Assembly: GCA_015233235.1 (NCBI GenBank)
Contig: JADFYD010000002.1
Span: forward strand, 1-40,742
Origin: Candidatus Omnitrophota bacterium
GTDB taxonomy: Bacteria > Omnitrophota > Gorgyraeia > Tantalellales > Tantalellaceae
DNA length: 40,742 nucleotides
Direction: 5' to 3'
Below the pieces are notes generated by a model. It was given only the letters and a program-made list of their open reading frames with translations, was not told where the DNA came from and ran no database searches. Of the stretch, positions 1,668 to 29,373 are shown piece after piece (the first letter of the stretch is position 1; each line of letters begins with the position of its first letter). The position numbers were made by a program, and so were the translations under genes.

Positions 1668-4600
1668 ATGTCTATGAAAAAGATCATTTCATGTTTTACT
1701 GCCATTATTTTTCTTTGCACTAATTTTTCCTATGCCAATGTTGTAACTATCAAACCTGACAAGTTAGCGCCGCCCCTCATAAGCCAGGAATATCCTATCA
1801 CCCGTACACAGGACACGTTTCGAAACAGTGTGCGAGACAATGTTAAACTTATGACGTTGTCTTTGTACATCGCCGAGTACTATTTTAAGAATACCGATAA
1901 AAGCACCGATCTATTCAATTATCTCACTAAAACTTTGGGTTTTGATTCTACATTTTTACATTCCAGCGGTATCAATTTTGACGATGTAAAATTTGATACT
2001 GACAGGATTGTGCGTGTTTATTTTTCCGACGCGGTGACAGGAGAGCGAGGCGTGATCGGTGTGGCCGATGTCGACGTCGCGGCCTCTTATGCTTTACGTG
2101 ATAAGAGATGGGAGACACTTAGCGCTGATTCTAAATACGTGTTTTTTATCGCGCAATGCCCGGCTCCGGATAGGTCTAAAACCGGTGCTCAAGATCAGCG
2201 TGACCTGAAGGGCACTAACGCCGCAGAGACAAATCCTGAAATCATAGAATTGATAAAAAATAGAGAGTTGGTCGAGCTTTATCTGGATAATGGAACCGGA
2301 GAACTTAAGGCCAGCAGGCTTAATTTTGTTCCCGGATATGTACCCATGAGAACGCCGGTCGATGTATATCGCGGTTTAGAAATGGATGTTTTACAGCTCT
2401 TTACGCCTGATATACAAAAAAACATAATTGAATGGTTAAAAACACATAAGGTACGGGGTGCGCCGGTCAAATTCAGGATAGCATTGGGAAGGATCGGTTT
2501 GAAATGGTCGAATAGCCCTGAATATTCGAACATTATGCATGCCGGCGTGACCGACGGAGTGATCTATACGGGCAGCGCGTTATTGAGGTATCTGTTCACG
2601 GATGGCGATGAGAATCAAAAATTGCAGCGTATGATCCTTGACGAAGACGAGTACCAGCACCTCATCGGTTTACCGCACGGCTCACAGAGTGACGTGAACG
2701 AGCGCATCGAACATGTTAAATTTCTGGAAGCCACTCGAGGTCTGGAACAGATACGCGCGGCGATGCTTCACAACGACGTATATTTCCTGCAAAGCGAACT
2801 GGAATGTTGTCTTGTCCCCGGGGGCACCAGCACAAAACACCTTTTTGAGATACTCGCGGTCTGTAATGATGTCTCGATGAGCTTGCCCTTGTATGCGGTT
2901 GAAAGCAGATATTCCATAAATCATGCCGTATCTCTTCTCGATGCCGACAGACAGGAAATGCTAGTCAAGATATTGAATTCTGATACGGACCTTGTACGGG
3001 CGAATAGAAGTAACGTTGTGATCGAGGATATACTGTTGCTTCTTGCCCAGGAAAAACTTGATTACGATTGGGTGAAAAAATTCGCTCCTGAATTGGAAAA
3101 AAGGACAGTTTGGCAAATATCGCCTGAAATATGGCATGAGGCCGGCGGACTCGCAAGAGTTATGCAGTATCATGGCGCCGGCATGCTTGAACTATTAAAA
3201 AATTCCGATACGAAATTACGTCACATTGAACCCCATTATCAGTACCGCATCGATCCCATCACAAAAGAACCGATACCGTTCGATTACCGGACCGACATTA
3301 CGCACCCGATCGCGAACCTTAAAGATACCGGTATCAGATTTCAGGTCACTGTAGGCGGAAGGCCGGTGAATGTCGCGGTTTCGAGCGGCAAGAACGATCT
3401 TGGTATAGAGGTGTGGCTGATAAGGGATGTGCAGGATAACGGCAAAAGTTTCTACACGCATTCGCTCTACAATTACAGAAGAGAGCCGTTCGAGCATAAT
3501 CCGACAACTCCTACATGGGAAGAGTTCTCGGCTTTTTATTCAAAGGCGTCGCTTGAACTTGTGAGAATAGTTGAGAACCGCGAAAAGAAAGAAAAAGAGG
3601 AACTTAGAGAGGAGTGGAGAGCTCCCGTTCTGCATCTCAATGATTCACAAACCGCGCTTGTTTCGGTATATCGCAAGATCCTACTGGACCAGGAAATGGA
3701 GAAAAAAAGACATAGCGAAAAATATACCATTGACCCGGTATTGGAGGAGGCGATCATATTTTTTACTACTCACACATACAATAATCGCAGGGATTATTCA
3801 CTCGAAGGGCATAGAAGACAATCTGCCATAGATACGCTGAAATTTCTGGATATTCCCGATAAGTACATGGAACTATTCAGGAATTACAAAGAATTTTCTC
3901 CAGGAAATATAGAATTCCGTTATGATATCGCCTCTGGCGGTCTGAGGTCCGCGGATGGGCAAAGCGCCGTTGCCAAGGCCCACCGCGACGATGTAGCTAT
4001 GTTGGACGAATGGTTGAACGACCCGACAAACACTACGGCCCGGCGCTTGTATGAAGACCTTGACGACCCATTTCTAAATGTTGAGATCGCGGCTATCGCT
4101 AATGGCGATCACCGTGAAGCCAGCGCCGAATATTTTAGGAAATACCTGAAAAGAGTGAACCCTATGGCTGATGTTGAACATCCGGTGCCGGCGGAACTAT
4201 TTGCCGCGAAGAGCGAGGCCAAAAAAAATCTGGCCCTTAAACCAACCATTGATATGTCAGGTAATAGGCGTAAGCGGCTTGTCTATTCCTCTGTCGATGG
4301 GGTCATCGATGATGGAAGGGCTTTTCTTGATCAGGAACGCGCCCTTCCGGTAGTTTCATATTCCGGCCGTCTCGTACGTGAAAAGGTCGGAAGGGGCAGC
4401 AACCTTGACAATGGTACCGGAATAGACGGAAGAGGAGCGTTTGACAACACCAATATCAGGGAACTTGTAAAACGAGGGGTGCAGGTCGTTATATTTGGTA
4501 ACGTTCAATCCAATAATCCTGACAGTGATAGATTGAGCCAGGACCTCATTAATTTGGTGGACGAACTTAAACGTGAATCCGAACGGGAACATTATAAGGG

Positions 4601-7274
4601 AAGGTTGATCTTTGTTCCAAGGTTCATGTTGGATGACCAAAGGGCGCTTCTTGCCGCGTCCGATATACAGGTGCAGGATTCTTATCCAAAAACTGAAGCG
4701 GCAGGGTTTACCGAAGCGGACATCGCTGTCAACGGCGGTTTGGAAGTGGCTACTTTACGTACCGGTAAAGACTATAATGAAGGTGTTGGGGAAGGATTAT
4801 TCCAGGCGCAGGGGTGGCCATTCGATTTTGAGAAACTTGGACGCGGTAACACGCTTGTGCCTGAAACTCTCGACTCAAAAGGTTACTTGAAAGTTATGCT
4901 TGCTGCTTTGAGTATGGGGCTGGAAACTCCCGAACACGCCGTTACGCCCGACGAGCTTGTAACCGTGCTGAAGGAAAAACTATGTCATCATCAGGCGACA
5001 TCTGTAAAACTTAGCAGGGTGCTGGAGGCGCGCATAACCGCAGCGGCGTATTTACGTCTGTTCAGTACCACCATTGCGAAGAAAAAAGCCAAGATACTGG
5101 CTCGTAAAAAATATGATGAAGCGCAGAAAGCCGAAAAAGAATACGGCGAGATCTTGCGGAGATTAGCCAAAGATGTTCCGGATGATTATCTGGTTTATAC
5201 GATATGCCGTTTTGTCCTTGAAAACAGGATTGAAAAAGCCGCGAACGCTTTATTTACGAGCGAGCTATTTCAGCGTGATAAGAAGAATTATGAGCCGATG
5301 GCGCAGGTATTTAATAATTTGATCGTTTTTATTAATGAAGGCAAGGTCACTTCAGCCGATGCCAGGAGATTTATCGGTTTACTGATACAGCGGATCAGTC
5401 TTCTGTCGGAACCGGATTCAAATACTAATCCCGGATCGGCGGAGTTTGCCGGAGCTGTTCAACTTATGGCGGCGCAGTCGCTGATGATCATTTCATGGTT
5501 AGAAACAAGGGTGCCCGGCGCCGATAGGATACGGATAACGTCAAACCGCGAAAAGATGGCGCCAAACGTCGACCACGGCGCTTCGTACATAGACGCTTCG
5601 TCACTTCCGGGAAATTTGAAGAACGCAGATTATGTTCATTTAGGGCTAACCGAATCCGCGCCAAAATATGAGAGCAGGATTTATAAGCCGGCTGTCTTTG
5701 ATATGGGGCTTCTATTGTCTGCGATGGGGTCGCCAGTTTACGGTACATATTTGGTTAATAGCGGGTTTTGCGCGATCCCGGAGACCATACAAAATGCTGT
5801 TGACGGCATTCAAATGAAGCCTCTCTTTGAAACAGCGTTTATCCATAATGTTTTCCCCGGATCTTTGCAAACCGTATCACGCGAAACGGGTCATTTTCAG
5901 GGCAGGAACCTAATACTTAAACAGGCCCTAAGCGGCTATGGTGTACAACTTAATGTGGAATACTCGTCAGATGGGATGAAGGCGGGGAAAATATTTGCGC
6001 AATTTATCTACCCCGGCAGTTATTTCGCGGCGCTTCCCGGGCATGTAAGCTATGTAATCAATTTAGGTGATCTGCGATACCGCGGTGTGCAGTGTGAGTT
6101 GCCGATCGATGTGGCCTCGCGTTTTCGGCCGGATTTTAACTTTAGTAACGAGAATTTAACACGTTTTAAAGAAGTGTTTTTAGGCGTTAAATCTCCCTAT
6201 GCCGGCATTTTGACAAATGACAGGATGGGGATGATTAAGACCGGAGATGATGTCCCCGCGCCTGTGTGGGTGGAATCGCTGGATCACCAGATCCGTGAAA
6301 TGTTCGGGATCGACGGTAAAACTAAAAATTTGACCGATTTTTATCTTCTATCCAGACATGGGCAGCAGGAGAATTTCATAAAAAGTTTGGCGACTTTTGT
6401 GCGGTTGCTTATCGCTTCTGGAGGGGACCAGGCAATGACTGTACCGGAGGGTACCGTAAAACCGCAAATATTTACGTCAAGTGAGTTGGCGGAGGTAGTA
6501 GCGCAGCTGAAACAAAAACCCGCTACTCCAGTGTCGTTGGGATTGACCGATGCGTTGAAGACCTATGTTGATGACAATAGGGACAACCTGAGGTACATAC
6601 TTGATAACAAAGACTCGGAAGACAGGCTTATAAGGATACCTCTCGAGTTGATCGAAAGCGTAGGCGTGGAGAATATACGCGGATACTTAGAAGCGATACA
6701 AGCCACTAAACATGGATATCTCGAGATATTTTCTGTTCAAAATCCGCTTAGTATCGGTAACCCGCACAATCTGGTCGTGAAAGATATACCTGAGCATCTC
6801 AAAAAAGAAAAAAGAACGCGTCAAAACACGATAACTATTTTCCCGGTATTTAAAGGTGACAATCTTCCCAAAAGCCAGGTAAATAGGGTTTGGCAGGAGA
6901 GGCTGGGCGGAGAAGACCCAATGAAAACTATTTTGTCTCCGGCCGGGTATAACTATGACAAAGCCGGGATGATACGCAGTATTATTATGGGCCTTCGTTT
7001 GTCAGAAGTCAGCCATATGGCTAATGGCGAAAGCGGTATAGTGCTATCCGATATACTGGCCGATTTCAAAAAACTATATTCAATGCAAAGTGAGGTCAAC
7101 GGCGAATTTAATATTACCGTTGATGATATCCGCAGCCTTTGCGGCGACGTAAATTTTGATACAATGCTGGCCTCTCTTGATAAAATTATAAAACTGCTTC
7201 CTATCTTACCGCTTTCCACTGAAGAGATACGAGAAATTTACGCTTTTGCCCGGCAATCTCTGGTAAGCGCGTAA
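1668..7274 (+). CDS. Giant predicted secreted protein (1868 aa) with GT-B / glycogen-synthase-like region and unassigned C-terminal half
   Basis: Sec-like signal peptide MSMKKIISCFTAIIFLCTNFSYA|N; GT5-like motifs ISPEIWHEAGGLARVM, APVLHLNDSQTALVSVY, PVVSYSGRLVREKVG, QDSYPKTEAAGFTEADIAVNGGLEVATL; long uninterrupted frame. Confidence 0.75.
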   Translation: MSMKKIISCFTAIIFLCTNFSYANVVTIKPDKLAPPLISQEYPITRTQDTFRNSVRDNVKLMTLSLYIAEYYFKNTDKSTDLFNYLTKTLGFDSTFLHSSGINFDDVKFDTDRIVRVYFSDAVTGERGVIGVADVDVAASYALRDKRWETLSADSKYVFFIAQCPAPDRSKTGAQDQRDLKGTNAAETNPEIIELIKNRELVELYLDNGTGELKASRLNFVPGYVPMRTPVDVYRGLEMDVLQLFTPDIQKNIIEWLKTHKVRGAPVKFRIALGRIGLKWSNSPEYSNIMHAGVTDGVIYTGSALLRYLFTDGDENQKLQRMILDEDEYQHLIGLPHGSQSDVNERIEHVKFLEATRGLEQIRAAMLHNDVYFLQSELECCLVPGGTSTKHLFEILAVCNDVSMSLPLYAVESRYSINHAVSLLDADRQEMLVKILNSDTDLVRANRSNVVIEDILLLLAQEKLDYDWVKKFAPELEKRTVWQISPEIWHEAGGLARVMQYHGAGMLELLKNSDTKLRHIEPHYQYRIDPITKEPIPFDYRTDITHPIANLKDTGIRFQVTVGGRPVNVAVSSGKNDLGIEVWLIRDVQDNGKSFYTHSLYNYRREPFEHNPTTPTWEEFSAFYSKASLELVRIVENREKKEKEELREEWRAPVLHLNDSQTALVSVYRKILLDQEMEKKRHSEKYTIDPVLEEAIIFFTTHTYNNRRDYSLEGHRRQSAIDTLKFLDIPDKYMELFRNYKEFSPGNIEFRYDIASGGLRSADGQSAVAKAHRDDVAMLDEWLNDPTNTTARRLYEDLDDPFLNVEIAAIANGDHREASAEYFRKYLKRVNPMADVEHPVPAELFAAKSEAKKNLALKPTIDMSGNRRKRLVYSSVDGVIDDGRAFLDQERALPVVSYSGRLVREKVGRGSNLDNGTGIDGRGAFDNTNIRELVKRGVQVVIFGNVQSNNPDSDRLSQDLINLVDELKRESEREHYKGRLIFVPRFMLDDQRALLAASDIQVQDSYPKTEAAGFTEADIAVNGGLEVATLRTGKDYNEGVGEGLFQAQGWPFDFEKLGRGNTLVPETLDSKGYLKVMLAALSMGLETPEHAVTPDELVTVLKEKLCHHQATSVKLSRVLEARITAAAYLRLFSTTIAKKKAKILARKKYDEAQKAEKEYGEILRRLAKDVPDDYLVYTICRFVLENRIEKAANALFTSELFQRDKKNYEPMAQVFNNLIVFINEGKVTSADARRFIGLLIQRISLLSEPDSNTNPGSAEFAGAVQLMAAQSLMIISWLETRVPGADRIRITSNREKMAPNVDHGASYIDASSLPGNLKNADYVHLGLTESAPKYESRIYKPAVFDMGLLLSAMGSPVYGTYLVNSGFCAIPETIQNAVDGIQMKPLFETAFIHNVFPGSLQTVSRETGHFQGRNLILKQALSGYGVQLNVEYSSDGMKAGKIFAQFIYPGSYFAALPGHVSYVINLGDLRYRGVQCELPIDVASRFRPDFNFSNENLTRFKEVFLGVKSPYAGILTNDRMGMIKTGDDVPAPVWVESLDHQIREMFGIDGKTKNLTDFYLLSRHGQQENFIKSLATFVRLLIASGGDQAMTVPEGTVKPQIFTSSELAEVVAQLKQKPATPVSLGLTDALKTYVDDNRDNLRYILDNKDSEDRLIRIPLELIESVGVENIRGYLEAIQATKHGYLEIFSVQNPLSIGNPHNLVVKDIPEHLKKEKRTRQNTITIFPVFKGDNLPKSQVNRVWQERLGGEDPMKTILSPAGYNYDKAGMIRSIIMGLRLSEVSHMANGESGIVLSDILADFKKLYSMQSEVNGEFNITVDDIRSLCGDVNFDTMLASLDKIIKLLPILPLSTEEIREIYAFARQSLVSA

Positions 7275-13637: not shown

Positions 13638-13922
13638 ATGATGCGTAAAAAGTTCGAGGCAGGATTCAAGGCAAGGGTCGCGATCGAGGCGCTCAAGGGT
13701 GAAAAAACCATAAATCAGCTGAGTTCTGAATACGGAGTTCACCCCAACCAGGTAAGCAAATGGAAGCTTGAGTTGCAAAAAGGAGCGGCAGGTATATTTT
13801 CGGGCAAAAAGGACATGGAAGACGCCGGGCACAGGGAACTGGCGGACAAACTCTATAAAAGTGTCGGCGAACTTAAGGTCGAGAACGATTGGCTTAAAAA
13901 AAAATTGAGCATTTTGGGATAG
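13638..13922 (+). CDS. IS3-family transposase OrfA (HTH)
   Basis: KFEAGFKARVAIEALKGEKTINQLSSEYGVHPNQVSKWK...LKVENDWLKKKLSILG; AGGAGG RBS. Confidence 0.92.
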   Translation: MMRKKFEAGFKARVAIEALKGEKTINQLSSEYGVHPNQVSKWKLELQKGAAGIFSGKKDMEDAGHRELADKLYKSVGELKVENDWLKKKLSILG

Positions 13923-14887
13923 AAGCCCTAATTCCGCTCATTGACAGTGATGATAGTGATTTCAGCGTACGGCAACAATGCCGGCTATTGGGTATAAATC
14001 GATCGACTTTATACTATGAGGAAGTAGCGTTGTCCGAAAGAGACATACTTTTAATGAAAAATCTGGACGAACAGCATACGAAGATGCCGTTTTACGGTGT
14101 GATTAAAATGACCAAGGCCATGAGGGATCGCGGTTTCGCGGTAGGCAAAGACCACATACGAACACTTTTGCGCAAAATGGGCATTGTGGCCATATTTGCC
14201 AAGCCGTACACAAGCAAGGCTCATCCTGAGAATAAGATATTTCCGTATTTATTGAAAGACCTTGAGGTGACGCGGCCGAATCAGGTATGGAGCGCCGATA
14301 TCACGTACATACGGCTAGAATACGGCTTTGTGTATCTCGTGGCTATAATCGACTGGTACAGCCGGTACATAATAAGTTGGAGATTGTCTAACACGTTGAC
14401 GGTTGATTTTTGCGCGGAAGCTCTGGATGAAGCCTTAATGCTGGCAACGCCGGAATTTTTCAATACGGATCAGGGCAGCCAGTTTACCAGTCAGGAATTT
14501 ATCGGCAGGCTGGTCGACAAAAAGATAAATATTAGCATGGACGGCCGTGGCCGGGTATTTGATAATATTTTTATTGAGCGGTTCTGGCGTTCAATGAAAT
14601 ATGAGAACGTTTATCCGAACAACTATCGGAACATAGCCGAGGCAAAAGAAGGACTAAAAAAATATTTTACATTGTACAATGTCGAAAGATACCATGAATC
14701 GCTAGATTACAAAACACCATGGGAAGTATATTCCGGGATTCAGATAAACAAAGAAGTGATCATACCCAAAATCGTACCATGTTCTGACCTGGGTGCGGCG
14801 ATAAAAACGCCGTGTAGCGTAAATGCTGAAGAATTTTTTAGTGACATATTGCTAGAATCTAGAAAAATCGGAGAAAATGAGTTATGA
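13904..14887 (+). CDS. IS3-family transposase OrfB (DDE integrase), probably made as OrfAB fusion by -1 frameshift
   Basis: SADITYI / NTDQGSQFTS / FIERFWRSMKYENVY DDE motifs; frame is open upstream of the predicted TTG start (13988): ...EALIPLIDSDDSDFSVRQQCRLLGINRSTLYY, overlapping orfA at A9 run 13896-13904. Confidence 0.88.
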   Translation: MEHFGIEALIPLIDSDDSDFSVRQQCRLLGINRSTLYYEEVALSERDILLMKNLDEQHTKMPFYGVIKMTKAMRDRGFAVGKDHIRTLLRKMGIVAIFAKPYTSKAHPENKIFPYLLKDLEVTRPNQVWSADITYIRLEYGFVYLVAIIDWYSRYIISWRLSNTLTVDFCAEALDEALMLATPEFFNTDQGSQFTSQEFIGRLVDKKINISMDGRGRVFDNIFIERFWRSMKYENVYPNNYRNIAEAKEGLKKYFTLYNVERYHESLDYKTPWEVYSGIQINKEVIIPKIVPCSDLGAAIKTPCSVNAEEFFSDILLESRKIGENEL

Positions 14888-20020: not shown

Positions 20021-21370
20021 TTATAGTTTCCCTTTGCGGTATGCTAGTAGGAATGCGCTGACGATGATGGGGTCGAATTGTGTGCCCGAGTTATCACTCA
20101 CGATCTGGACGGCCACCTCTTTCAACTGGGCCTGTCTGTAGGGTCGGTCGCTGGTTATAGCGTCGAAAGTATCGGCGACGGCTATTATGCGGGAGATAAA
20201 TGGTATGTCATCCCCTTTTAGCCCGTCCGGATATCCTTTTCCATCGAATCTTTCATGGTGTGCCCTGATCTCGCGGGCTATTTCCCCGAGTTCGCGTATC
20301 GGGGCAAGTATGATAGCGCCGACTATCGTGTGTTCTTTAACTTTCTCATATTCCTGTTTTGTAAGTGCGGCGGTCTTTTTGAGTATACTGTCGGGCACGC
20401 CGATTTTTCCGACATCATGCAAAAGCGAAGCTACATGTAAAGTTTCCTTGAAATTCGAGTATTGTTTAGCTTCCGGCAAAGATTCCAGTTCCTCAGAAAT
20501 GATCTGGGCATAGCGTGTGACCCGTTCGGTGTGGCCGTGTGTATAAGCGTCACGCGCGTCTATTGCCGCAGCTAGTGAAATTGCGGTATGCAGAAAAAGA
20601 CTGTGTTCCCGAGCGTACAGCAGTTGTACTTCCTCGATGCGTCGGTTCAATTCCTGTATAAGCTGCGCGTTCGAAAGCGCCATACCGACGTCGTTCGCGA
20701 GTGTAGTAAAAAAACTTATCTCTTGCCGTGAAAACTTTTTATTGGAGATCTTTCTGCCAAGGAGAAGGACACCTAAGATCCTTTTTTTGTGATATACGGG
20801 CACACAGAGAACAGACTTTAAAAGCTCCATCTGTTTTATGACTTCGGGTATAAGTACCATTAGCTCATTATCGTCTTTAATGCTGGGGTCGTTCGATAGA
20901 TTAAGCTTGAGTTCCTTTAGCGTCAGGGCTCCCGATGAATTGATCTTGAAGTTGTGTCGCTCGTTGAAAACGCGTATAAGTGGATTATCTTCCATAATGC
21001 GTATAAAACCGACAGGGATCTTATTGCCCGTAAGCCCCTTGCTGTCAACCAGGGAAAAATAATTCTTAGTATCGGAGTAAACCAGCATCGCAGTGTGAGA
21101 AGTGCGGACTTGTTCGTCGATAGTGCGGACTATCATTCTGATCAGGTGCTCTGGCCTTTTGAACCTTATCATGTTCTTCGAGGCTTCTTCGAGCATGTAC
21201 TGATAATCAAGTTCCGGTTCTGGCCGTACGGCTGGCTGTTTTTCCGGGAATGAAGGCAGGCCGTTCGGGCCTTTCTTCATGTTCTTTACCAGCCAATCCT
21301 CGATCTTTTGCCACTCGTTCTTATTTATCATAGATTGTCCCGCATATCCATTATATATAAGAGAAGACAA
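20021..21370 (-). CDS. GAF + HD-GYP domain phosphodiesterase
   Basis: HDVGKIGVPDSILKK, HHERFDGKGYPDGLKGDDIP, ADTFDAITSDRPYR; N-terminal GAF-like (LLKSVLCVPVYHKKRILGVLLLGRK). Confidence 0.93.
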   Translation of the reverse strand: MSSLIYNGYAGQSMINKNEWQKIEDWLVKNMKKGPNGLPSFPEKQPAVRPEPELDYQYMLEEASKNMIRFKRPEHLIRMIVRTIDEQVRTSHTAMLVYSDTKNYFSLVDSKGLTGNKIPVGFIRIMEDNPLIRVFNERHNFKINSSGALTLKELKLNLSNDPSIKDDNELMVLIPEVIKQMELLKSVLCVPVYHKKRILGVLLLGRKISNKKFSRQEISFFTTLANDVGMALSNAQLIQELNRRIEEVQLLYAREHSLFLHTAISLAAAIDARDAYTHGHTERVTRYAQIISEELESLPEAKQYSNFKETLHVASLLHDVGKIGVPDSILKKTAALTKQEYEKVKEHTIVGAIILAPIRELGEIAREIRAHHERFDGKGYPDGLKGDDIPFISRIIAVADTFDAITSDRPYRQAQLKEVAVQIVSDNSGTQFDPIIVSAFLLAYRKGKL

Positions 21371-21384
21371 AAATCTACTTCAAT

Positions 21385-21765
21385 CTACTTCTTTTTAGTT
21401 TCATCCAGCATTTGGGCGGCGAGCAAGACCGCTCTTTCAAGGTTTTCGAGAAGAAGAGGTTTTGTTATGTAATCTCTGGCCCCGTTCGAGCGTGCTTCTT
21501 TGATCTTAGCGGTATCGTCTATGGCAGTCACCATGATCACCCTGCTTCTGATCTTTCGTCTGGTCAACTCTTTGAGGGTTTGCATACCATCCATAACAGG
21601 CATCAGCATATCCAAAAGAATTACGTCGGGACTCGACGACTGAGCGAGGCCCAAAGCTTCACTGCCGTTATACGCGCAGCAAACGTCAAAATTTCTTTCC
21701 TCGAAAAAACTTTTCACAAAATCACAGATCTCAACTTCGTCGTCGACGACCATTAGTTTGTACAT
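21385..21765 (-). CDS. Stand-alone response regulator receiver (REC) protein
   Basis: MYKLMVVDDEVEICDFVKSFFEERNFDVCCAYNGSEALGLAQSSSPDVILLDMLMPVMDGMQTLK...VMVTA...DYITKPL. Confidence 0.95.
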   Translation of the reverse strand: MYKLMVVDDEVEICDFVKSFFEERNFDVCCAYNGSEALGLAQSSSPDVILLDMLMPVMDGMQTLKELTRRKIRSRVIMVTAIDDTAKIKEARSNGARDYITKPLLLENLERAVLLAAQMLDETKKK

Positions 21766-21782
21766 AAACCTTCCTTTCTTTT

Positions 21783-22160
21783 TTACGACTTCAGACAGTC
21801 ATTTATTATAGTCTCAAGGTGTTTGATACTTACTATGGGTTTTTCCACATAGGCACAGGCGCCTTTTTTCAAGAGATTAAGCGAATTTACGGCGGAGTCA
21901 TTAAAGGCTGTGATAATAATAACTTTCACCGTGGGGTCTATTTTAAGCATTTTTTCCATAAGTTCATCCCCATGCATGCCGGGTATCTTAAAATCCAGCA
22001 AGACAACCGAATATTTGTTTTTTTCGAATTTAGATAACGCGTCCATTGGAGTTTGAGCTGTGTCGATAGGATATCCCCTGGCACTGAAATACTCGAAAAT
22101 AAAATCCGCGAAATTAACTTCGTCGTCTACTGCCAGTATCTTGATTTCGTTCGGTGTCAT
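21783..22160 (-). CDS. Stand-alone response regulator receiver (REC) protein (start likely MTPNEIKILAVDDE)
   Basis: ILAVDDEVNFADFIFEYFSARGYPIDTAQTPMDALSKFEKNKYSVVLLDFKIPGMHGDELMEKM...IIITA...YVEKPI; track start at 22226 overlaps the kinase gene. Confidence 0.92.
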   Translation of the reverse strand: MTPNEIKILAVDDEVNFADFIFEYFSARGYPIDTAQTPMDALSKFEKNKYSVVLLDFKIPGMHGDELMEKMLKIDPTVKVIIITAFNDSAVNSLNLLKKGACAYVEKPIVSIKHLETIINDCLKS

Positions 22161-22173
22161 TTTTCCCCTGTAT

Positions 22174-24336
22174 TCAATTATGCCCGTTTGGTGACGAGCG
22201 GAACATAAGATGTACCGTTGTGCCATTTCCCGGCTCGCTATCTACCGAAATAGTGCCATTATTTCTTTCCACAACCTGTTTTACAATGAATAGTCCAAGG
22301 CCCGTACCTTTTCCCGGGTCTTTCGTCGTGTAAAATGGGTCAAATATGCGCGACAATACTTTTTTTTCAATGCCGCTTCCGGTATCTGATATGTCTATAT
22401 AAACCCTTTCGAACCGCCGTTCTGCCGTGATGGTGATACGTCCTTCGCTCTGCATGGCCTGCGCGGCGTTCCGTAAAATATTAAAAAATATCTCCTGAAG
22501 TTGTTTTCTGTCGGCCGATATCATTTTTGCGTCGTCCGCGATCCGTTTTTCGATATTAATTTTGTCCATGCGGAGATCGTATTGTAAAAGAGAAAGCACT
22601 TCGTCGACCTCTTTTTCGACCTCGACGTTGTTCTCGATCTCGCCTTTGGGAGGTTTTGAGAAAGCTGAAAGTTTTTTGGTGATCGCTGTCGCCCTGTCAG
22701 TCTCTTTTATTACCTTATCCATGATAACAGCCGCTTTTTCAAGGATCTCCTCGCGTGTTTTTGCGGCGTAGATACCGTCTTTCGCGTTCAGGATAAAAAG
22801 TTCGCATTGGCCACGGATGATCCCGAGCGGGTTACAGATCTCATGATTAATACCAGCGGACAACGTACCTATAACAGCCATTTTCTCCCGTTGGGCCGCC
22901 TGCGCCTGCGACCGGCTGAGGTCGTTTACAAGACGAGCGTTAGCGATAGCGATGGAGATCGTCTTTGAGAGTGGTACCAGGATATCTATGTCATCGTTAT
23001 TGAAATTATCATCAGATTTCTTTTTGCCCAGCAAAAGCAAGCCAAGTACCTCATTTTGATGTATTAGCGGAAAAATTATGTCCGTACGCGATTCTGCCAT
23101 GAATTCCTGTATGCCGCCAGGGATCGATATGGGCTTACCGTTTTTCTCTTTATATATGAAAGGTTGATCTTCGCTGAGAATGCTATTCCAGAAAAGGGAA
23201 TTATCCTTCATTTCCCATTGCGTTTTTCCAGTAAAATTCGATCCCGCAGCTACGGAGAAAATATTCTCGCCCTTGTCATACAAAAGGATGGCAGCATTTT
23301 CTAGCCGCAATACTTCGGCAAGTTTGTTTACTGTAAGTTCGACTAACTCCTTAAGCTCCAGTACACTCAGCACTTCGCCCGTGAATGTTTTGAGTAGGTG
23401 CCGGTAATCATACTTTTTTTGAAAAAGAAATTTGTCGGTGATATTGACAAGTAACTTTTCCAGGGGTTTATATAGAAAAACCAACAGGATCACAGGCGGA
23501 ACAAATGAAATGAATTTGTTATTGAAGATATTCTCAAAATAAGCTGAGCACAATGAAACGATGGAGGCGAATACAAAATAAAAACAGACAAGCAGTCCTG
23601 CAAAAACGATTGTTTTTTTGATGATGATAGAAATATCCATAACGCGATGTCTTATGATGGCATAAGCCACTACCAGCGGATACAATGCAACTAAAAAATT
23701 CGTATATGGATACATGTCTAAATGAAAAGCGGATAAAAAAAGCGGGTTAGTACCGAGCCAGCCAAAGCCGACGCCAATTATCAGGTATCTAAGTTTATTG
23801 CGGTATTCACCGCTGGAGTTTTTTAAGGCATTCAGCAACAAAAAGAAGCCGTACCCAAGTGTTATCCAAAAAAATCCGATATAAAACACGAAAAAAAGCG
23901 GGTTTTTGTATTTAAGGGCGTCTATCCAATAGAATTTGCCAAAAACAAGCCTGATATCACCCAAAAAATACCTTGATGACTTATACCAGTTAAAAAAGCT
24001 GAAAACTAACGCTGCGAAATATACCAGAAAAATTAACGCCTTGCGATTGATCTTAAGGTAGGAAACTATGAAATGTGAAAAAAATGCGATCGCGAAAAAA
24101 GCCCCCATATACGCGATCTTCCACCAGAAAAAACCTTGCGCATATGAATCTTTTGGGTATGCGCTGAACATGAACGCGCCCAGTTGCCAAACAGTACTGC
24201 TGAGGGTGAACCCGGCAAATGTGAGTATAGACACCTGCTTTCTGCCTTTCGATACGAGGAGAAAAACCGTAATGGCAAAACTGCTTATGATGCCGAGTAA
24301 ACATGAAAAGCGGAAGGTGTCAATTGGATTCAGCAT
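22174..24336 (-). CDS. Sensor histidine kinase: 7TM-type N-terminus, GAF, HisKA, HATPase_c
   Basis: Multiple N-terminal TM helices; LSAGINHEICNPLGIIRGQCELF (H box); IFFNILRNAAQAM; DTGSGIEKKVLSRIFDPFYTTKDPGKGTGLGLFIVKQVVERNNGTI. Confidence 0.94.
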   Translation of the reverse strand: MLNPIDTFRFSCLLGIISSFAITVFLLVSKGRKQVSILTFAGFTLSSTVWQLGAFMFSAYPKDSYAQGFFWWKIAYMGAFFAIAFFSHFIVSYLKINRKALIFLVYFAALVFSFFNWYKSSRYFLGDIRLVFGKFYWIDALKYKNPLFFVFYIGFFWITLGYGFFLLLNALKNSSGEYRNKLRYLIIGVGFGWLGTNPLFLSAFHLDMYPYTNFLVALYPLVVAYAIIRHRVMDISIIIKKTIVFAGLLVCFYFVFASIVSLCSAYFENIFNNKFISFVPPVILLVFLYKPLEKLLVNITDKFLFQKKYDYRHLLKTFTGEVLSVLELKELVELTVNKLAEVLRLENAAILLYDKGENIFSVAAGSNFTGKTQWEMKDNSLFWNSILSEDQPFIYKEKNGKPISIPGGIQEFMAESRTDIIFPLIHQNEVLGLLLLGKKKSDDNFNNDDIDILVPLSKTISIAIANARLVNDLSRSQAQAAQREKMAVIGTLSAGINHEICNPLGIIRGQCELFILNAKDGIYAAKTREEILEKAAVIMDKVIKETDRATAITKKLSAFSKPPKGEIENNVEVEKEVDEVLSLLQYDLRMDKINIEKRIADDAKMISADRKQLQEIFFNILRNAAQAMQSEGRITITAERRFERVYIDISDTGSGIEKKVLSRIFDPFYTTKDPGKGTGLGLFIVKQVVERNNGTISVDSEPGNGTTVHLMFRSSPNGHN

Positions 24337-24337
24337 T

Positions 24338-25630
24338 TTACCGGGTCTTCTCCAAACTTTTAGCGAGCCTTTTTGCCAGTGCGACTATCGTTACGATAGG
24401 CGGAGCGCCGGGTGATTCAGGAAGCACACTGGCATCGCATACATATAAATTCTTGATCTCTGTCTCCAAGTTGTTGTCTACCACCCTACCGATTGCCGCC
24501 GTTCCGCCCGGATGAGCCGATCTTGTCCCGGTAAAAATGATATCGCCGTCCCGTACCCCTGCTTTTAGCAATATTTCTCTGGAAACGGTCGCTCCCTTGT
24601 GAAGTTTATCGTTGTCACGGGCTGTGGGTTTTTTGCTGAACGTTTCATTTGAATTAACGACCCCGGTTTCATCATCTTTGATCTTCACCATTATGCCCAA
24701 CAGGTCCTTATACCGGAATGCTTTAAGTTGTTTTCTTTTCGATAACACCCACCTGGCAACAAGCGGCACGTCGATGTAAGGCGCCATAATAAAGCCGTCA
24801 CTTTGTTGAAATTTGGTGCTCAAACATGCCATTGACGGTTCTTTCCATAAGTTTATGTTTTCATCTTTCATGATGCCGTATGTGACCGTGAATAAGTCGG
24901 AAAAAAAATGCGTCCCGGCATTTTTAATTCCGCTTCGTTGCAGTATCACCGGACTTGAGATCCCCCCCGCCGCTAAGACGACGGTATCGGCAAAGATCTT
25001 TAATCGACCGTCGGTTGTCTCGGCCACTACACCAACGGCCTTTTTTTTATGGATGGCGACAGATTTAACATTTGCGCCGGTGATTAAACGCGTTCCATGC
25101 TTACGTGCTTCGGCGACGAAAAAAAGCGAGGACCACTTCGCTCCGGTCTTGCATCCGAGAACACATACGCCGCATGAGGTGCATTTATCTGGATTTATGA
25201 ACTTAGGCATAGGGCCCATTTCGTACCCCAGTTTATTGGATGAATCCATTATGAGGCGGGAACCCGATCCTATAAGTTTGTTCGAGAGTTTCTGTACATT
25301 AAGGTCCTTTTCGGCGGATTCAAATTCGCGCGATAGGTCGATGCCTTTGTCCCGGAACACTTTTTCGAGTGTCCTGACACCATTTCCGCAGCTTACTACG
25401 GTTGTCCCGCCGACCATGAGTGTCCTATAGACGATCGTGCCTTCTTTGCTTGTTCTTAGGGCGCATTTATCGTAGTGGCTCAACACGGCATCTCGTATCG
25501 AACCAAGATCCTTAGGGGGCATCCCCCTTTCTAAAAGAATTACCTTTCTGCCTTTTTTGGAGAGTTCCTTAGCGACAGTCGCACCGCCGGCCCCGCTGCC
25601 CACAACCACTACGTCAGTTTTTATTTTCAT
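24338..25630 (-). CDS. GMC-family FAD-dependent oxidoreductase with ferredoxin-like Cys motif
   Basis: VVVVGSGAGGATVAKELSKKGRKVILLERG; CTSCGVCVLGCKTGAKW (CxxCxxCxxxC); HPGGTAAIGRVVDNNLETEIKNLYVCDASVLPESPGAPP. Confidence 0.88.
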   Translation of the reverse strand: MKIKTDVVVVGSGAGGATVAKELSKKGRKVILLERGMPPKDLGSIRDAVLSHYDKCALRTSKEGTIVYRTLMVGGTTVVSCGNGVRTLEKVFRDKGIDLSREFESAEKDLNVQKLSNKLIGSGSRLIMDSSNKLGYEMGPMPKFINPDKCTSCGVCVLGCKTGAKWSSLFFVAEARKHGTRLITGANVKSVAIHKKKAVGVVAETTDGRLKIFADTVVLAAGGISSPVILQRSGIKNAGTHFFSDLFTVTYGIMKDENINLWKEPSMACLSTKFQQSDGFIMAPYIDVPLVARWVLSKRKQLKAFRYKDLLGIMVKIKDDETGVVNSNETFSKKPTARDNDKLHKGATVSREILLKAGVRDGDIIFTGTRSAHPGGTAAIGRVVDNNLETEIKNLYVCDASVLPESPGAPPIVTIVALAKRLAKSLEKTR

Positions 25631-25661
25631 TGGCCCACCTATTTGTGAAATGTCTGATCAT

Positions 25662-26936
25662 TTAATCCCTTTTTGTCGCCAAGGGCTCTGACTGATTTTT
25701 CTTTGTAAAACTATGGCGGTCCTGAAATACTTTTTTAATATCTATTCCGAATTTCTTTTCCTTCGCGTAACTCATAAGTGAGGGGAAAGTTTTTTCATCC
25801 ACCGGGGGACAGACCAACCCGACGTTTTTCAGGATCGGACCCAAATTTGTTGTATCAAAAATAATGGGAGCCGAGTTTATATATGGCGTAAAAACCTGAC
25901 CGGCGGTCTTATAATATAACTTTTCGAGGTTGTTCTTATCGTTTGGGATCTCATCAATGTGCCGTACTCCAAGTACGTTAATCGCCTTCAACATCTCGCT
26001 TATATAATACGTGTGAGGGGTCTCGCGTTCTTGGACGATGTGATAACTCTCCCCTGCGTCATTCTGAATAAAAACTTGATAGATCAACTTCGCCGTATAA
26101 TCTGCCGGGACTATATTCAATCCGCTATTTAATGAGTATTTTACTCTGGCATTAAGCGTGATGGGTGTTTCGTAAACGGCATCATTTTCCGTAAGGTGCT
26201 GTGTTTTCATAAGTAGAAAAAATGCCGCCCATCCATAAAAAACATCAAACTTGCTCATGGCGCCATGTGGCTTTTCGATAAGTCTGCCGCATGTGACGGA
26301 GGGTCTAAAAAATCTGAATTTAATTTTCGATCTTTTTGCGAAATTTCGCACTATGGTTTCGGCTTCGATCTTAGTCCTTTCATAAGAATTCCTGAAAGGC
26401 TGATCGAAGTTCACGTAATCAGGCTTGACTACACCTGCGCTTTCGCCGCATGCATAGGCCGTCCCGACATACGAGAACTCTTTTACATTGAGGGACGAGA
26501 GCAGATCAAGTATTTTTTTAGTGCCTTCAACATTGTACAGTTTGAGTAGGTCAAAGATTTTTTGAGAGTTCCTTAGATCTGTCAGCGCCGCAAAATGAAA
26601 AAAACCGTCGAATTTAACAGATTTTAATATGGTAAGGTCCAGGTTGCCGATAGAAAGCGCGCTATCTCCAAGATCCATATTGATGCCTATAAGCCCGTGT
26701 TCGCAGAATGATCTTATGCTATTTTTCTCGTGTGCGTTGGCATTAATGTACTCCATTCCGTCATCGAATATTAATTCACGAATTCTTTGGTAAATAGTTT
26801 TATCACCGGAACCTTTCCCTAAGACATAAATCTTCAGCGCGTCTAGATGTCCGAGATTCTGCTTAATCGCCTCGAACAAAAAGTTTTTACCAAGAAGACC
26901 AGTAGCGCCTGTAATCGCTATATTCATTGATTCCAC
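25662..26936 (-). CDS. NAD(P)-dependent SDR, fatty acyl reductase / thioester-reductase-like (NAD_binding_4 type)
   Basis: MNIAITGATGLLGKNFLFEAI; FSYVGTAYACG; FRFFRPSVTCG; NIVPADYTAKLIYQVFIQNDAGESYHIV. Confidence 0.75.
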   Translation of the reverse strand: MESMNIAITGATGLLGKNFLFEAIKQNLGHLDALKIYVLGKGSGDKTIYQRIRELIFDDGMEYINANAHEKNSIRSFCEHGLIGINMDLGDSALSIGNLDLTILKSVKFDGFFHFAALTDLRNSQKIFDLLKLYNVEGTKKILDLLSSLNVKEFSYVGTAYACGESAGVVKPDYVNFDQPFRNSYERTKIEAETIVRNFAKRSKIKFRFFRPSVTCGRLIEKPHGAMSKFDVFYGWAAFFLLMKTQHLTENDAVYETPITLNARVKYSLNSGLNIVPADYTAKLIYQVFIQNDAGESYHIVQERETPHTYYISEMLKAINVLGVRHIDEIPNDKNNLEKLYYKTAGQVFTPYINSAPIIFDTTNLGPILKNVGLVCPPVDEKTFPSLMSYAKEKKFGIDIKKVFQDRHSFTKKNQSEPLATKRD

Positions 26937-26959
26937 CTCTTCTTAAGTATTTCTATGCT

Positions 26960-27181
26960 TCAGTTTGTGTTGATCGGCATTGAAGCCCCGGGCTGTTTCG
27001 CATTGCTTTTTTCCTGACCTTTAATCCAATCGTCGATCGAGCTTTTTTTGAATCTCCATGCCGAACCTATTTTAAAACACGGGATCTGCCCATGCTGGGC
27101 GTGTTTGTATATTGTGGATGTTTTAATTTGCAGATAATCTGCAAGTTCCTCGACTGTCAACACTTCCTGTGTAGTAGGCAT
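26960..27181 (-). CDS. Excisionase/AlpA-type helix-turn-helix DNA-binding protein
   Basis: EVLTVEELADYLQIKTSTIYKHAQHGQIPCFKIGSAWRFKKSSIDDWIKGQ. Confidence 0.9.
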   Translation of the reverse strand: MPTTQEVLTVEELADYLQIKTSTIYKHAQHGQIPCFKIGSAWRFKKSSIDDWIKGQEKSNAKQPGASMPINTN

Positions 27182-27496
27182 TGCCCCACCCCCACTCTTG
27201 TAATGTCTGCGAGTTTGTGCGCAAATAATGCGTTATTTTGGCTCGTTATGGATTGTATTGATACGCATTAACACGTGTTGTATCGGCAAATCAAGTATAA
27301 TGAAAATAGTAAAAAATGCAAATTAGCGTGTAATTGCTTACATTTAAAGGTGATGCAAAAATTTTAAATTGTACGCTACATTCGTATGTGTGTAAAATCG
27401 TTGCAAAGACCCCTCATTTTATGGTAAATTTTAACTGTATAAGAACGCATGATACAGTAGATTCAATGTAAACGTTGCAACTGTTGGAGAACACAA

Positions 27497-27808
27497 ATGG
27501 AGCAAAATTACGGTGAACCGGTATATACGATCGGGATCGCGGCAAATAAAGTAGGTGTATGTATTTCAACTCTCAGAATTTGGGAGAGAAAGAAGCTTAT
27601 CAAACCGAAAAGGATCGGCAGGAACAGGTTTTATTCAGGCTATGATCTCGATCGGCTAGAAAAGATCAAAGAGATGCTGCAGACACAGCACATTAATATC
27701 GAAGGAGTCAGAAATATCCTGGATACCACCCGGTGCTGGGATGTCAAGAATTGCCCGCCTAAGGAACGAAAAGCATGTTCCGTATACATTAAATACGGTC
27801 GTTCATAG
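27497..27808 (+). CDS. MerR-family regulator with C-terminal CW..C..C motif
   Basis: YTIGIAANKVGVCISTLRIWERKKLIKPKRIGRNRFYSGYDLDRLEKIKEML; C-terminus CWDVKNCPPKERKACSVY. Confidence 0.87.
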   Translation: MEQNYGEPVYTIGIAANKVGVCISTLRIWERKKLIKPKRIGRNRFYSGYDLDRLEKIKEMLQTQHINIEGVRNILDTTRCWDVKNCPPKERKACSVYIKYGRS

Positions 27809-27863
27809 CTTCTCTGCTCCCCTTTTCGTAGGTATAAAAATCATTTCAACTTAACCGATATGT

Positions 27864-27885
27864 ATTTGCATGGATATCTGCAAAT
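27864..27885. promoter_or_regulatory. Candidate operator: inverted repeat upstream of second GMC oxidoreductase
   Basis: ATTTGCA (27864-27870) - tggatatc - TGCAAAT (27879-27885), perfect 7-bp arms, 28 nt upstream of the putative -35. Confidence 0.4.
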
Positions 27886-27913
27886 CACATTAACATATAA
27901 CCTGTAAACTCTA

Positions 27914-27941
27914 TTGACATATTCACAGTTTATGCTAAACT
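27914..27941 (+). promoter_or_regulatory. Candidate promoter for second GMC oxidoreductase
   Basis: TTGACA (27914-27919) - 16 nt - TAAACT (27936-27941), then AGGAGG RBS before ATG 27973. Confidence 0.55.
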
Positions 27942-27972
27942 TCACGATACGGAAACTAAAAGGAGGGTTGTT

Positions 27973-29373
27973 ATGAATAATGAGTTCGAATACATTATCG
28001 TTGGCGGCGGATTGTGCGGGCTCGTTCTGGCAAAAGAATTAGCCGGACGCGGACAGGATGTTCTGGTGTTGGAAAAAGGTAATTACGTGAATAAAATGGG
28101 TACATTGGAAAGAACCCTTTCCTTTTACGATAAGTTTGCTTTAGCAAAAAGTGTTCAGGGTATTCCCATTTACAGGGCTTTTGGAATTGGCGGGACCAGC
28201 CTTATCAGCTGCGGTAACGCTGTTGAGTTCACCCGTGAAGAATATAACAGGATCGGTATAGACATTTTGAGTGAACTCCCGGCGGCAAAACTCGAAGGAC
28301 ATGTCAAAACCGACGGTCTTAATATAGGTAAAGCATCGGCTAAGATCATGGAAGAAGCCAACGCTTTAGGGTATACCATGGGGCCAATGCCTAAGTTCAG
28401 TATGACCGAAAAGTGTGCCTCATGCGGCAATTGCTACTTAGGATGCCGGTTCGGAACAAAGTGGACATCTGTAAATTGCATAAAAGAAGTCCATGCTGAT
28501 CATCTAACGATAGTGACAGGATTTGATGTGGATAAAGTCATTATCTCGCACGGAAAAACAATCGGCATTTCGGGTCAATACGGCAAATCCCGTTCCAAAC
28601 GTAAGTATTTTGCCAATACTGTAATTTTGTCGGCAGGTGGCATAGGAACACCGATCATTTTACAAAAGTCGGGAATAAAATCCGGGGAGAACCTGTTTAT
28701 CGATATTTTTAACGTTACTTACGGCGAATCGAAAGAGTATAAACAAAGAAATGAGCTGTCAATGTCGGTCGTTTGTGATAAATTTCATGTGTCCGACGGA
28801 TTTGTTCTGGCTCCATTTGTCGATAACTGGTATGGATTTTTAGGTTGTGCTGAACCAAAAGACATTGCAAAGGCAGCAAAGATGAAAGGCGTCGTGGGCA
28901 TAATGACCAAAATAGCGGATGATAACATTGGTAGAGTTCATTCTGACAACAAAATAGATAAAAAAATGACGCAAAACGACACTGATAAATTAAAAAAAGG
29001 GACTACAATCGCTACTGAAATACTAACTAAGTGTGGAGTTGAACCAAGAACTATTTTTGTTACTAAGCCTCGTGGTGCCCACCCCGGTGGAACGGCCGCT
29101 ATCGGTAAAGTTGTTAACGGAAATCTTGAGACCGAAATAAAAAATTTATTTGTATGCGATGCGAGCGTTCTGCCGTTCGCCCCAGGCCTCCCGCCAATGT
29201 TATCATTGGTGGCTATGACAAAATGGTTCTGTAAGAATTCTCTTTTAAGAACGAATCGGATCCATGCTGCCTATGAACCGGTATTTACAATTAGTCACCA
29301 AACGATCGATAAGTATGAAGAAGTATCCGCTGGACTAAAAAATAGAACGCGAGCTAAAAAAACGCAGTATTAG
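27973..29373 (+). CDS. GMC-family FAD-dependent oxidoreductase with ferredoxin-like Cys motif (paralog of 24338..25630)
   Basis: YIIVGGGLCGLVLAKELAGRGQDVLVLEKG; CASCGNCYLGCRFGTKW; HPGGTAAIGKVVNGNLETEIKNLFVCDASVLPFAPGLPP. Confidence 0.88.
   Translation: MNNEFEYIIVGGGLCGLVLAKELAGRGQDVLVLEKGNYVNKMGTLERTLSFYDKFALAKSVQGIPIYRAFGIGGTSLISCGNAVEFTREEYNRIGIDILSELPAAKLEGHVKTDGLNIGKASAKIMEEANALGYTMGPMPKFSMTEKCASCGNCYLGCRFGTKWTSVNCIKEVHADHLTIVTGFDVDKVIISHGKTIGISGQYGKSRSKRKYFANTVILSAGGIGTPIILQKSGIKSGENLFIDIFNVTYGESKEYKQRNELSMSVVCDKFHVSDGFVLAPFVDNWYGFLGCAEPKDIAKAAKMKGVVGIMTKIADDNIGRVHSDNKIDKKMTQNDTDKLKKGTTIATEILTKCGVEPRTIFVTKPRGAHPGGTAAIGKVVNGNLETEIKNLFVCDASVLPFAPGLPPMLSLVAMTKWFCKNSLLRTNRIHAAYEPVFTISHQTIDKYEEVSAGLKNRTRAKKTQY

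Follow-up and report, generated by a model that had tools for sequence, protein, structure and literature searches.

An Omnitrophota locus pairing exchangeable enzyme cassettes with the sensor half of a histidine kinase: a candidate chemical-signalling system

The locus described here, part of a 40,742-nucleotide stretch of DNA (the window) from a Candidatus Omnitrophota bacterium (assembly GCA_015233235.1, contig JADFYD010000002.1), is best introduced through the systems closest to it. In the Phc system of Ralstonia, one operon (phcB-phcS-phcR-phcQ) encodes the methyltransferase synthase PhcB, a sensor kinase and receiver (REC) proteins without DNA-binding domains (PMC8578825), and the Rpf/DSF system (RpfF-RpfC-RpfG) joins the synthase of a lipid-type signal to a membrane kinase and an HD-GYP output acting on cyclic-di-GMP (PMC5391125). 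In the comQXPA locus of Bacillus, comQ, comX and the 5′ end of comP form a jointly varying block and the 3′ half of comP and its flank are conserved (PMC6334282), and ladderane biosynthetic gene clusters have been called by antiSMASH in Omnitrophota metagenome-assembled genomes (MAGs) (PMC9902471). The window locus is transcribed on the minus strand in the order AlpA, SDR, GMC1, a seven-transmembrane (7TM)-GAF histidine kinase, REC1, REC2 and GAF-HD-GYP, with a divergent MerR-GMC2 pair beside it. With a probability of about 0.62, we read it as a chemical signalling system that senses its own product and whose specificity block is exchangeable; this block is formed by the enzymes between AlpA and the kinase (the cassette) together with the 7TM half of the kinase.

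Some Omnitrophota cassettes resemble Phc in consisting of a single methyltransferase followed by a kinase and two REC proteins, and a methyltransferase lies upstream of the kinase in L181, L189, L197, L204, L210 and L211, although none is found in the window. The window differs from Phc in having SDR and GMC genes in place of the methyltransferase, a 7TM-GAF kinase and an HD-GYP gene within the operon, and PhcR has a kinase domain that neither window REC possesses. A plasmid tblastn search for a link between the cassette methyltransferases and PhcB returned only generic class I methyltransferases (for example, YnbC). As for Rpf, no crotonase domain of the RpfF type occurs among the window genes or the Pfam-scanned cassette genes. 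The window kinase (7TM-GAF-HisKA-HATPase) is without the REC and HPt domains of RpfC, and its REC and GAF-HD-GYP proteins are encoded separately, whereas RpfG is a REC-HD-GYP fusion. Because defining parts of both systems are absent, we filed the locus under neither.

The likeness to comQXP is that signal-making genes and the sensor half of the kinase co-vary and the remainder is conserved, a pattern that we also found here; there, however, the variants are homologous alleles of a peptide signal with ComA as output, whereas here they are non-homologous enzyme sets with an HD-GYP output. Many related cassettes share KAS, ACP, FabG, FabZ and CrtI-like genes with ladderane and type II FAS-like clusters, but they can be replaced by single-enzyme cassettes and are bound to a 7TM sensor; no such gene occurs in the window. 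The XrtA/PEP-CTERM kinase PrsK has the same architecture as the window kinase and is its best full-length NCBIfam match (175.5 bits), but this score falls under the cut-off of 300 and no exosortase is present among the window's annotated genes, so a PrsK identity was rejected. A search of the open-access literature yielded no report that links KAS-type or ladderane clusters to this kinase or that describes their exchange. We know of no earlier description of a swap in which entire non-homologous enzyme sets and the sensor half of a single kinase are replaced together.

Constant frame and variable cassettes

A preliminary description of this DNA singled out the gene set as a candidate undescribed system. 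The set is more than a chance neighbourhood: the full order AlpA-SDR-GMC-HK-REC-REC-HDGYP recurs in a different GTDB family (genome G233, locus L051, with the kinase broken into two open reading frames (ORFs) and the HD-GYP gene cut by the contig end), and SDR-GMC-kinase is found again in G007 (L050), where it adjoins PgpA-PgsA-RimO at the corresponding chromosomal site, on a contig that ends inside the kinase. Across the class, AlpA and the kinase-REC-REC-HD-GYP genes are kept as a frame, and the interval from AlpA to the kinase differs between genomes. HD-GYP orthologues are present throughout (50–69% identity), AlpA occupies the equivalent place in most related loci, where it forms the 5′ boundary of the variable block and follows the species frame, and REC1 comes and goes with the kinase, while REC2 is retained beside HD-GYP even where the kinase has been lost.

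The enzymes of the window are rare within this frame. The Fe-S GMC was found in only 13 of 292 genomes and the SDR in only 10 of 384, and most class members that possess the frame have neither, carrying unrelated enzymes instead. At the same site within the window's own family (cassette enzymes assigned with Pfam and NCBIfam), the SDR-GMC cassette occurs in the window and L050, whereas other loci carry KAS-SDR-FabG-ACP-KAS-nitroreductase-CrtI-like genes (L063), an HMG-CoA-reductase-family protein (L175), acyl-ACP-reductase-like genes (L177), an aldehyde dehydrogenase (L179) or a PilZ-methyltransferase (L181), and the interval is empty in L174, L178, L182 and L183. Other families have chiefly KAS/FabG/ACP/FabZ/CrtI sets, to which a thioester reductase, an acyl-ACP-reductase-like gene or a second synthase is joined, as well as methyltransferases, an acyl-CoA ligase with a radical SAM protein, and PlsC with DUF362. 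L204 has a PilZ-methyltransferase ORF, and L188 has a CrtI-like gene interrupted by a gap.

Enzymes and sensor nevertheless stay together. An enzyme gene lies directly upstream of all 31 full-length kinases in the loci examined, and of the 9 loci that lack the kinase or have lost its 7TM domain, 8 have no enzymes (the exception being L190). These losses are spread over at least three families and include L183, which has lost the 7TM domain and keeps the GAF-kinase, and L205, which has lost both 7TM and GAF and keeps only the kinase core. Four further loci without a kinase (L206, L207, L209 and L222) contain only a DFP-family gene (phosphopantothenate-metabolism flavoprotein domain), directly upstream of REC2-HD-GYP or HD-GYP. 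Concordance between enzymes and kinase gave a Fisher P of 1e-7, or 7e-6 with the four DFP loci counted as enzyme-bearing, ignoring kinship in both cases. Likewise, each of the 9 evaluable homologues of the window SDR (at least ~42% identity, within the class) is immediately followed by the gene for a GAF-histidine kinase and by REC genes; 8 of these kinases match HisKA_7TM or are homologous to the window 7TM domain, and the ninth (L245) is called in an N-terminally truncated form.

These patterns bear on the proposal, made in the preliminary description, that acyl/alcohol redox enzymes, phosphorelay and HD-GYP protein form one functional unit acting as a fatty-aldehyde/alcohol redox switch. 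The unit is upheld by the linkage of enzyme and sensor within the class, but the specific switch is not, as its redox genes are just one among the many enzyme sets that can be exchanged on the constant frame. A housekeeping switch that reports lipid redox state to cyclic-di-GMP would fit the SDR and Fe-S GMC family assignments and the HD-GYP output, yet it is quite unlikely given how many genomes of the class run the same frame with unrelated enzymes. The same description held that a single system would fail if relatives had the two groups of genes, redox and signalling, in unconnected surroundings. This applies only in part: the frame does occur with other enzymes, and Fe-S GMCs outside Omnitrophota lie without such a kinase; within the class, however, enzyme and sensor remain linked.

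Mosaic structure of the kinase

The kinase itself combines halves with different histories. Mean identities among 31 kinases were 0.32 for the 7TM region, 0.49 for GAF and 0.67 for the kinase domain. The GAF-kinase tree recovered taxonomic families (f30, support 99; f1, 99.9), whereas the 7TM tree grouped sequences by cassette, uniting methyltransferase loci from f1, f15 and f7 (99.9), KAS-AAR loci with CrtI (f30, f15) and KAS-AAR loci without CrtI (f21, f30). In approximately unbiased (AU) tests, the 7TM data rejected the family clades f30 (p-AU 2e-4) and f1 (6e-3), which had been defined independently, and the GAF-kinase data rejected the cassette clades (1e-6 for the methyltransferase clade; 3e-3), although the latter P values are indicative, since these clades were chosen after viewing the 7TM tree. 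With kinase identity regressed out, pairs sharing a cassette had closer 7TM domains (0 of 5,000 permutations) with no effect for GAF (P = 0.42), and the same test within f30 alone gave 0.0012 for 7TM and 0.20 for GAF. The nearest 7TM domain from another family shared the cassette class in 29 of 48 cases (GMC-bearing loci included), compared with a shuffled mean of 7.7 and with 15 of 47 for the kinase domain.

A sharp break in the identity profiles falls near residue 240. Between the window and L057, the 7TM domains are 47% and the kinase domains 26% identical, with the profile dropping from 31–60% to 5–42% past ~240; between L051 and L196, the corresponding values are 22% and 81%, and the profile climbs from 5–28% to 66–97%. 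Kinase cores are normally more conserved than sensors, and therefore the window–L057 pattern requires transfer of the sensor. Similarly, the window 7TM domain is 65% identical to that of L050 (same cassette; RimO 54%) but only 28% to that of L175 (another cassette in the same family; RimO 57%). Together, these sequence comparisons showed that the GAF-kinase half is inherited with the species family and that residues 1 to ~240 travel with the enzyme cassette across families. Reading frames continue across the breakpoint, which argues against chimeric MAG assembly.

A chance neighbourhood of compact operons, or common descent alone, with sensor–cassette matches reflecting genome relatedness, is very improbable and already largely refuted. 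The genome is indeed compact with tightly packed genes, and permutation tests are blind to tree structure. The tree-based tests are not: the 7TM tree contradicts that of the GAF-kinase half, a conflict backed by AU tests each way, and matches cross families while kinase cores differ, the GAF half serving as an internal negative control.

A second alternative, which we regard as unlikely though less so, is a biosynthetic cluster for a membrane lipid, polyene or protective metabolite, governed by a 7TM kinase that senses membrane state or another cue and is co-carried as a neighbour. The KAS-FabG-ACP-FabZ-CrtI cassettes do resemble lipid and polyene synthesis sets, ladderane-type cluster calls exist for Omnitrophota MAGs (PMC9902471) and adjacency by itself can produce co-transfer. 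However, neither REC has a DNA-binding output, and single-enzyme cassettes (methyltransferase, HMG-CoA reductase, aldehyde dehydrogenase) would hardly yield a structural lipid. Moreover, cassette loss accompanies sensor loss while REC2-HD-GYP persists, and sensors match cassettes between distant families down to enzyme subtype.

Several points weigh against a self-sensing signalling system. L190 keeps its enzymes without a kinase, and the four DFP loci have that gene and no kinase. Cassette labels were set by us after viewing the loci, sampling was uneven, and the AU cassette clades were likewise chosen post hoc. Across families, the nearest neighbour by GAF shares the cassette label in 19 of 47 cases. 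The L051 7TM domain, although from an SDR-GMC locus, is only 31% identical to that of the window, its relatives being AAR-GMC loci (47%); it is possible that the L051 product is similar to the AAR-GMC product, AAR being another acyl-thioester reductase. Finally, co-exchange could reflect hitch-hiking of the kinase's adjacent 5′ end.

Proposed signalling route and its enzymes

Judging from their families, the SDR would reduce acyl-ACP or acyl-CoA to an aldehyde, and the Fe-S flavoenzymes GMC1 and probably GMC2 would oxidize or reduce this further to a small lipid-like product. Co-exchange, co-loss and co-relatedness suggest that the 7TM domain of the adjacent kinase senses the cassette product, which we consider rather likely from these patterns in sequence. 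The kinase would then phosphorylate REC1 and/or REC2, and the relay would act on the GAF-HD-GYP protein, which, given its intact motifs and constant linkage, is predicted to hydrolyse cyclic-di-GMP and thereby lower it. Catalytic motifs are intact in the kinase, both RECs and HD-GYP: the kinase histidine lies in an INHEICNP motif and is invariant in 29 homologues, and the HD-GYP protein has HDVGKIG and HHERFDGKGYP with their metal ligands. In evolution, the sequences indicate that cassette and sensor (AlpA to approximately kinase residue 240) have been replaced as a unit, with GAF-kinase-REC2-HD-GYP passing vertically. Foldseek comparison of the 7TM domain gave only weak matches of G-protein-coupled receptor or rhodopsin type (E > 0.003, TM ~0.5), which we did not use as evidence.

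Action between cells, as a quorum-sensing pherotype, is the likeliest role of the product, though at about even odds; alternatively, the 7TM domain may be a sensor of an internal metabolite or of feedback. We give similarly balanced odds to the broader proposal of an Omnitrophota chemical-language locus, in which non-homologous cassettes and cognate 7TM domains are swapped horizontally onto a constant kinase-to-cyclic-di-GMP chassis and a change of pherotype changes the whole signal chemistry. If true, a whole uncultured phylum would gain a candidate cell–cell signalling system, and with it many naturally paired synthases and 7TM sensors. Signals could be matched to receptors by the rule that the nearest 7TM domain predicts the cassette, the sharp breakpoint near residue 240 marks a junction for kinase chimeras, and the question of how a receptor keeps pace with its signal through a wholesale change of chemistry becomes testable.

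PilZ domains were observed on cassette methyltransferases (L181:12286-13716, L211:12505-13911 and L055:7867-9315) and on an adjacent REC protein (L054:6060-7937). They are likely a cyclic-di-GMP input beside the HD-GYP output or the GMC-kinase pair, and on the methyltransferases would let cyclic-di-GMP feed back on synthesis. In L062:10614-14789 and L058:10874-15154, an SDR or GMC gene is followed by 7TM-GAF domains joined straight onto HD-GYP (two in tandem), an arrangement that may represent a one-protein version of the kinase-REC-HD-GYP relay. Some cassettes contain toxin–antitoxin-like nucleotidyltransferase/HepT-like or helix-turn-helix (HTH) pairs (L195:9843-11465, L196:16412-16969 and L057:7807-8964, the last judged by eye only), which perhaps aid cassette retention or exchange.

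The SDR carries the nucleotide-binding motif TGATGLLG and a YxxxK motif (YERTK) and matched the NCBIfam thioester-reductase domain with 53.7 bits, under the curated cut-off; we predict from its sequence that it is an acyl-thioester reductase. GMC1 contains the FAD motif, both GMC domains (N and C), a CxxCGxCxxxC cluster with four invariant cysteines and an invariant HPGG histidine. Its AlphaFold model (pLDDT 91.8) was nearest in fold to fructose dehydrogenase (8jej/9jqa) and FAD-glucose dehydrogenase (8grj; TM ~0.8), FAD dehydrogenases whose GMC subunits also have an Fe-S cluster. The model suggests a dehydrogenase handing electrons to a partner and lies closer to these enzymes than to the long-chain alcohol oxidases named in the preliminary description. 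GMC1 differs from the large subunits of these dehydrogenases in sharing only 17–19% identity, in its length of 430 amino acids (aa) and in having proline at the second catalytic position, and the window operon, unlike theirs, has no cytochrome or small subunit. A literature search on Fe-S GMC oxidoreductases found no match.

Fe-S GMCs of the same clade occur in Chloroflexota, Methanobrevibacter, Desulfobacterota, Bacillota and others without adjoining such kinases, and no convincing GMC-kinase linkage was seen outside Omnitrophota in the loci examined. Because these outside Fe-S GMCs have no adjoining 7TM-type kinase, we regard the coupling as an Omnitrophota feature. In Spirochaetes L086 and Aminicenantes L088, the gene after the GMC encodes a class V aminotransferase rather than a kinase; there, a GMC2-type gene followed by the aminotransferase and a CMD-family gene forms a conserved pairing (L086:9989-13891, L088:2370-6195). 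In a Pseudomonadota MAG (L079:1-5386), a polyketide synthase (PKS)-like protein with DH, KR, ACP and terminal NAD_binding_4 domains precedes a GMC of the same Fe-S family, an arrangement that supports a putative reductase-plus-GMC chemistry on acyl or polyketide chains.

GMC2 forms a clade with the GMCs of L057 and L081 (support 100/99), a clade found in KAS-type cassettes, and these loci also own the 7TM sensors nearest the window's outside its family. Since the nearest relatives of GMC2 and of the 7TM domain come from the same two loci, we tied MerR-GMC2 to the operon, as the preliminary description had proposed, and GMC2 is the probable third enzyme of the system. The MerR-GMC pair recurs in G233, where a MerR orthologue with 71% identity adjoins a GMC and which also has SDR-GMC (L051, L052).

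Other candidate identities were rejected. The MerR-like protein scored 58.8 bits as HspR (cut-off 105), the two GMCs scored 72 and 69 bits as mycofactocin MftG (cut-off 400) with no mft genes in the window, and AlpA matched anti-phage MAD1 with 73.7 bits (cut-off 80) through a shared HTH only. A glycerol ester reductase of bacterial ether lipids was dropped, as the literature gave no tie to this gene set.

Layout of the locus and neighbouring features

All nine genes of the preliminary description were present as ORFs at their places, with families that agree by Pfam (Table 1). From HD-GYP up to AlpA, the intergenic gaps are 14, 17, −53, 1, 31 and 23 nt. The gaps of about 1–32 nt reported earlier thus stand (1–31 nt measured) except between REC1 and the kinase, where the listed overlap arises from an over-early REC1 start; an internal ATG at MTPNE, probably the true start (~22160), gives a short positive gap. 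The divergent region is AT-rich as described (64.8%, versus 54.2% for the window), but promoter-like matches within it were no more frequent than in shuffled sequence, and an Rfam scan for RNA elements found no match.

Table 1. Coordinates of the locus features within the window
Feature	Position	Strand	Evidence
GAF-HD-GYP, predicted cyclic-di-GMP phosphodiesterase	20021..21370	−	HD_5 E 1.3e-37, GAF
REC2, stand-alone receiver	21385..21765	−	Response_reg E 2.4e-27
REC1, stand-alone receiver	21783..22226	−	Response_reg E 9.1e-20
Linker/transmembrane-GAF-HisKA-HATPase half of histidine kinase (whole gene 22174-24336, start 24336)	22174..23631	−	Pfam
Sensor half of histidine kinase, aa 1-235, HisKA_7TM	23632..24336	−	PF16927
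GMC1, FAD GMC oxidoreductase (cassette enzyme 2)	24338..25630	−	GMC_oxred_N/C + Fer4 motif
Extended SDR, NAD_binding_4/thioester-reductase-like (cassette enzyme 1)	25662..26936	−	NAD_binding_4 E 1.2e-25
AlpA/excisionase-like HTH_17 protein, 73 aa	26960..27181	−	HTH_17 E 1.3e-16 (Pfam)
Divergent control region, 315 bp, AT-rich	27182..27496	.	Between AlpA and MerR genes
MerR/HspR-like regulator of GMC2	27497..27808	+	MerR_1 E 4.9e-17
GMC2, second Fe-S GMC	27973..29373	+	GMC_oxred_N/C

The source MAG is 1.59 Mb and 78% complete, and the window kinase is the sole HisKA_7TM protein found in it. Housekeeping genes flank the locus, with UvrA on one side and PgpA-PgsA-RimO-RodZ-FtsK on the other. Elsewhere in the window, an IS3-type transposase pair (HTH_Tnp_1 and rve; 13638-14887) separates an AcrB efflux operon from the CBS/UvrA genes, and an ORF of 1868 aa (1668-7274), for the most part unassigned, has a partial Glyco_transf_5 domain as its sole match.

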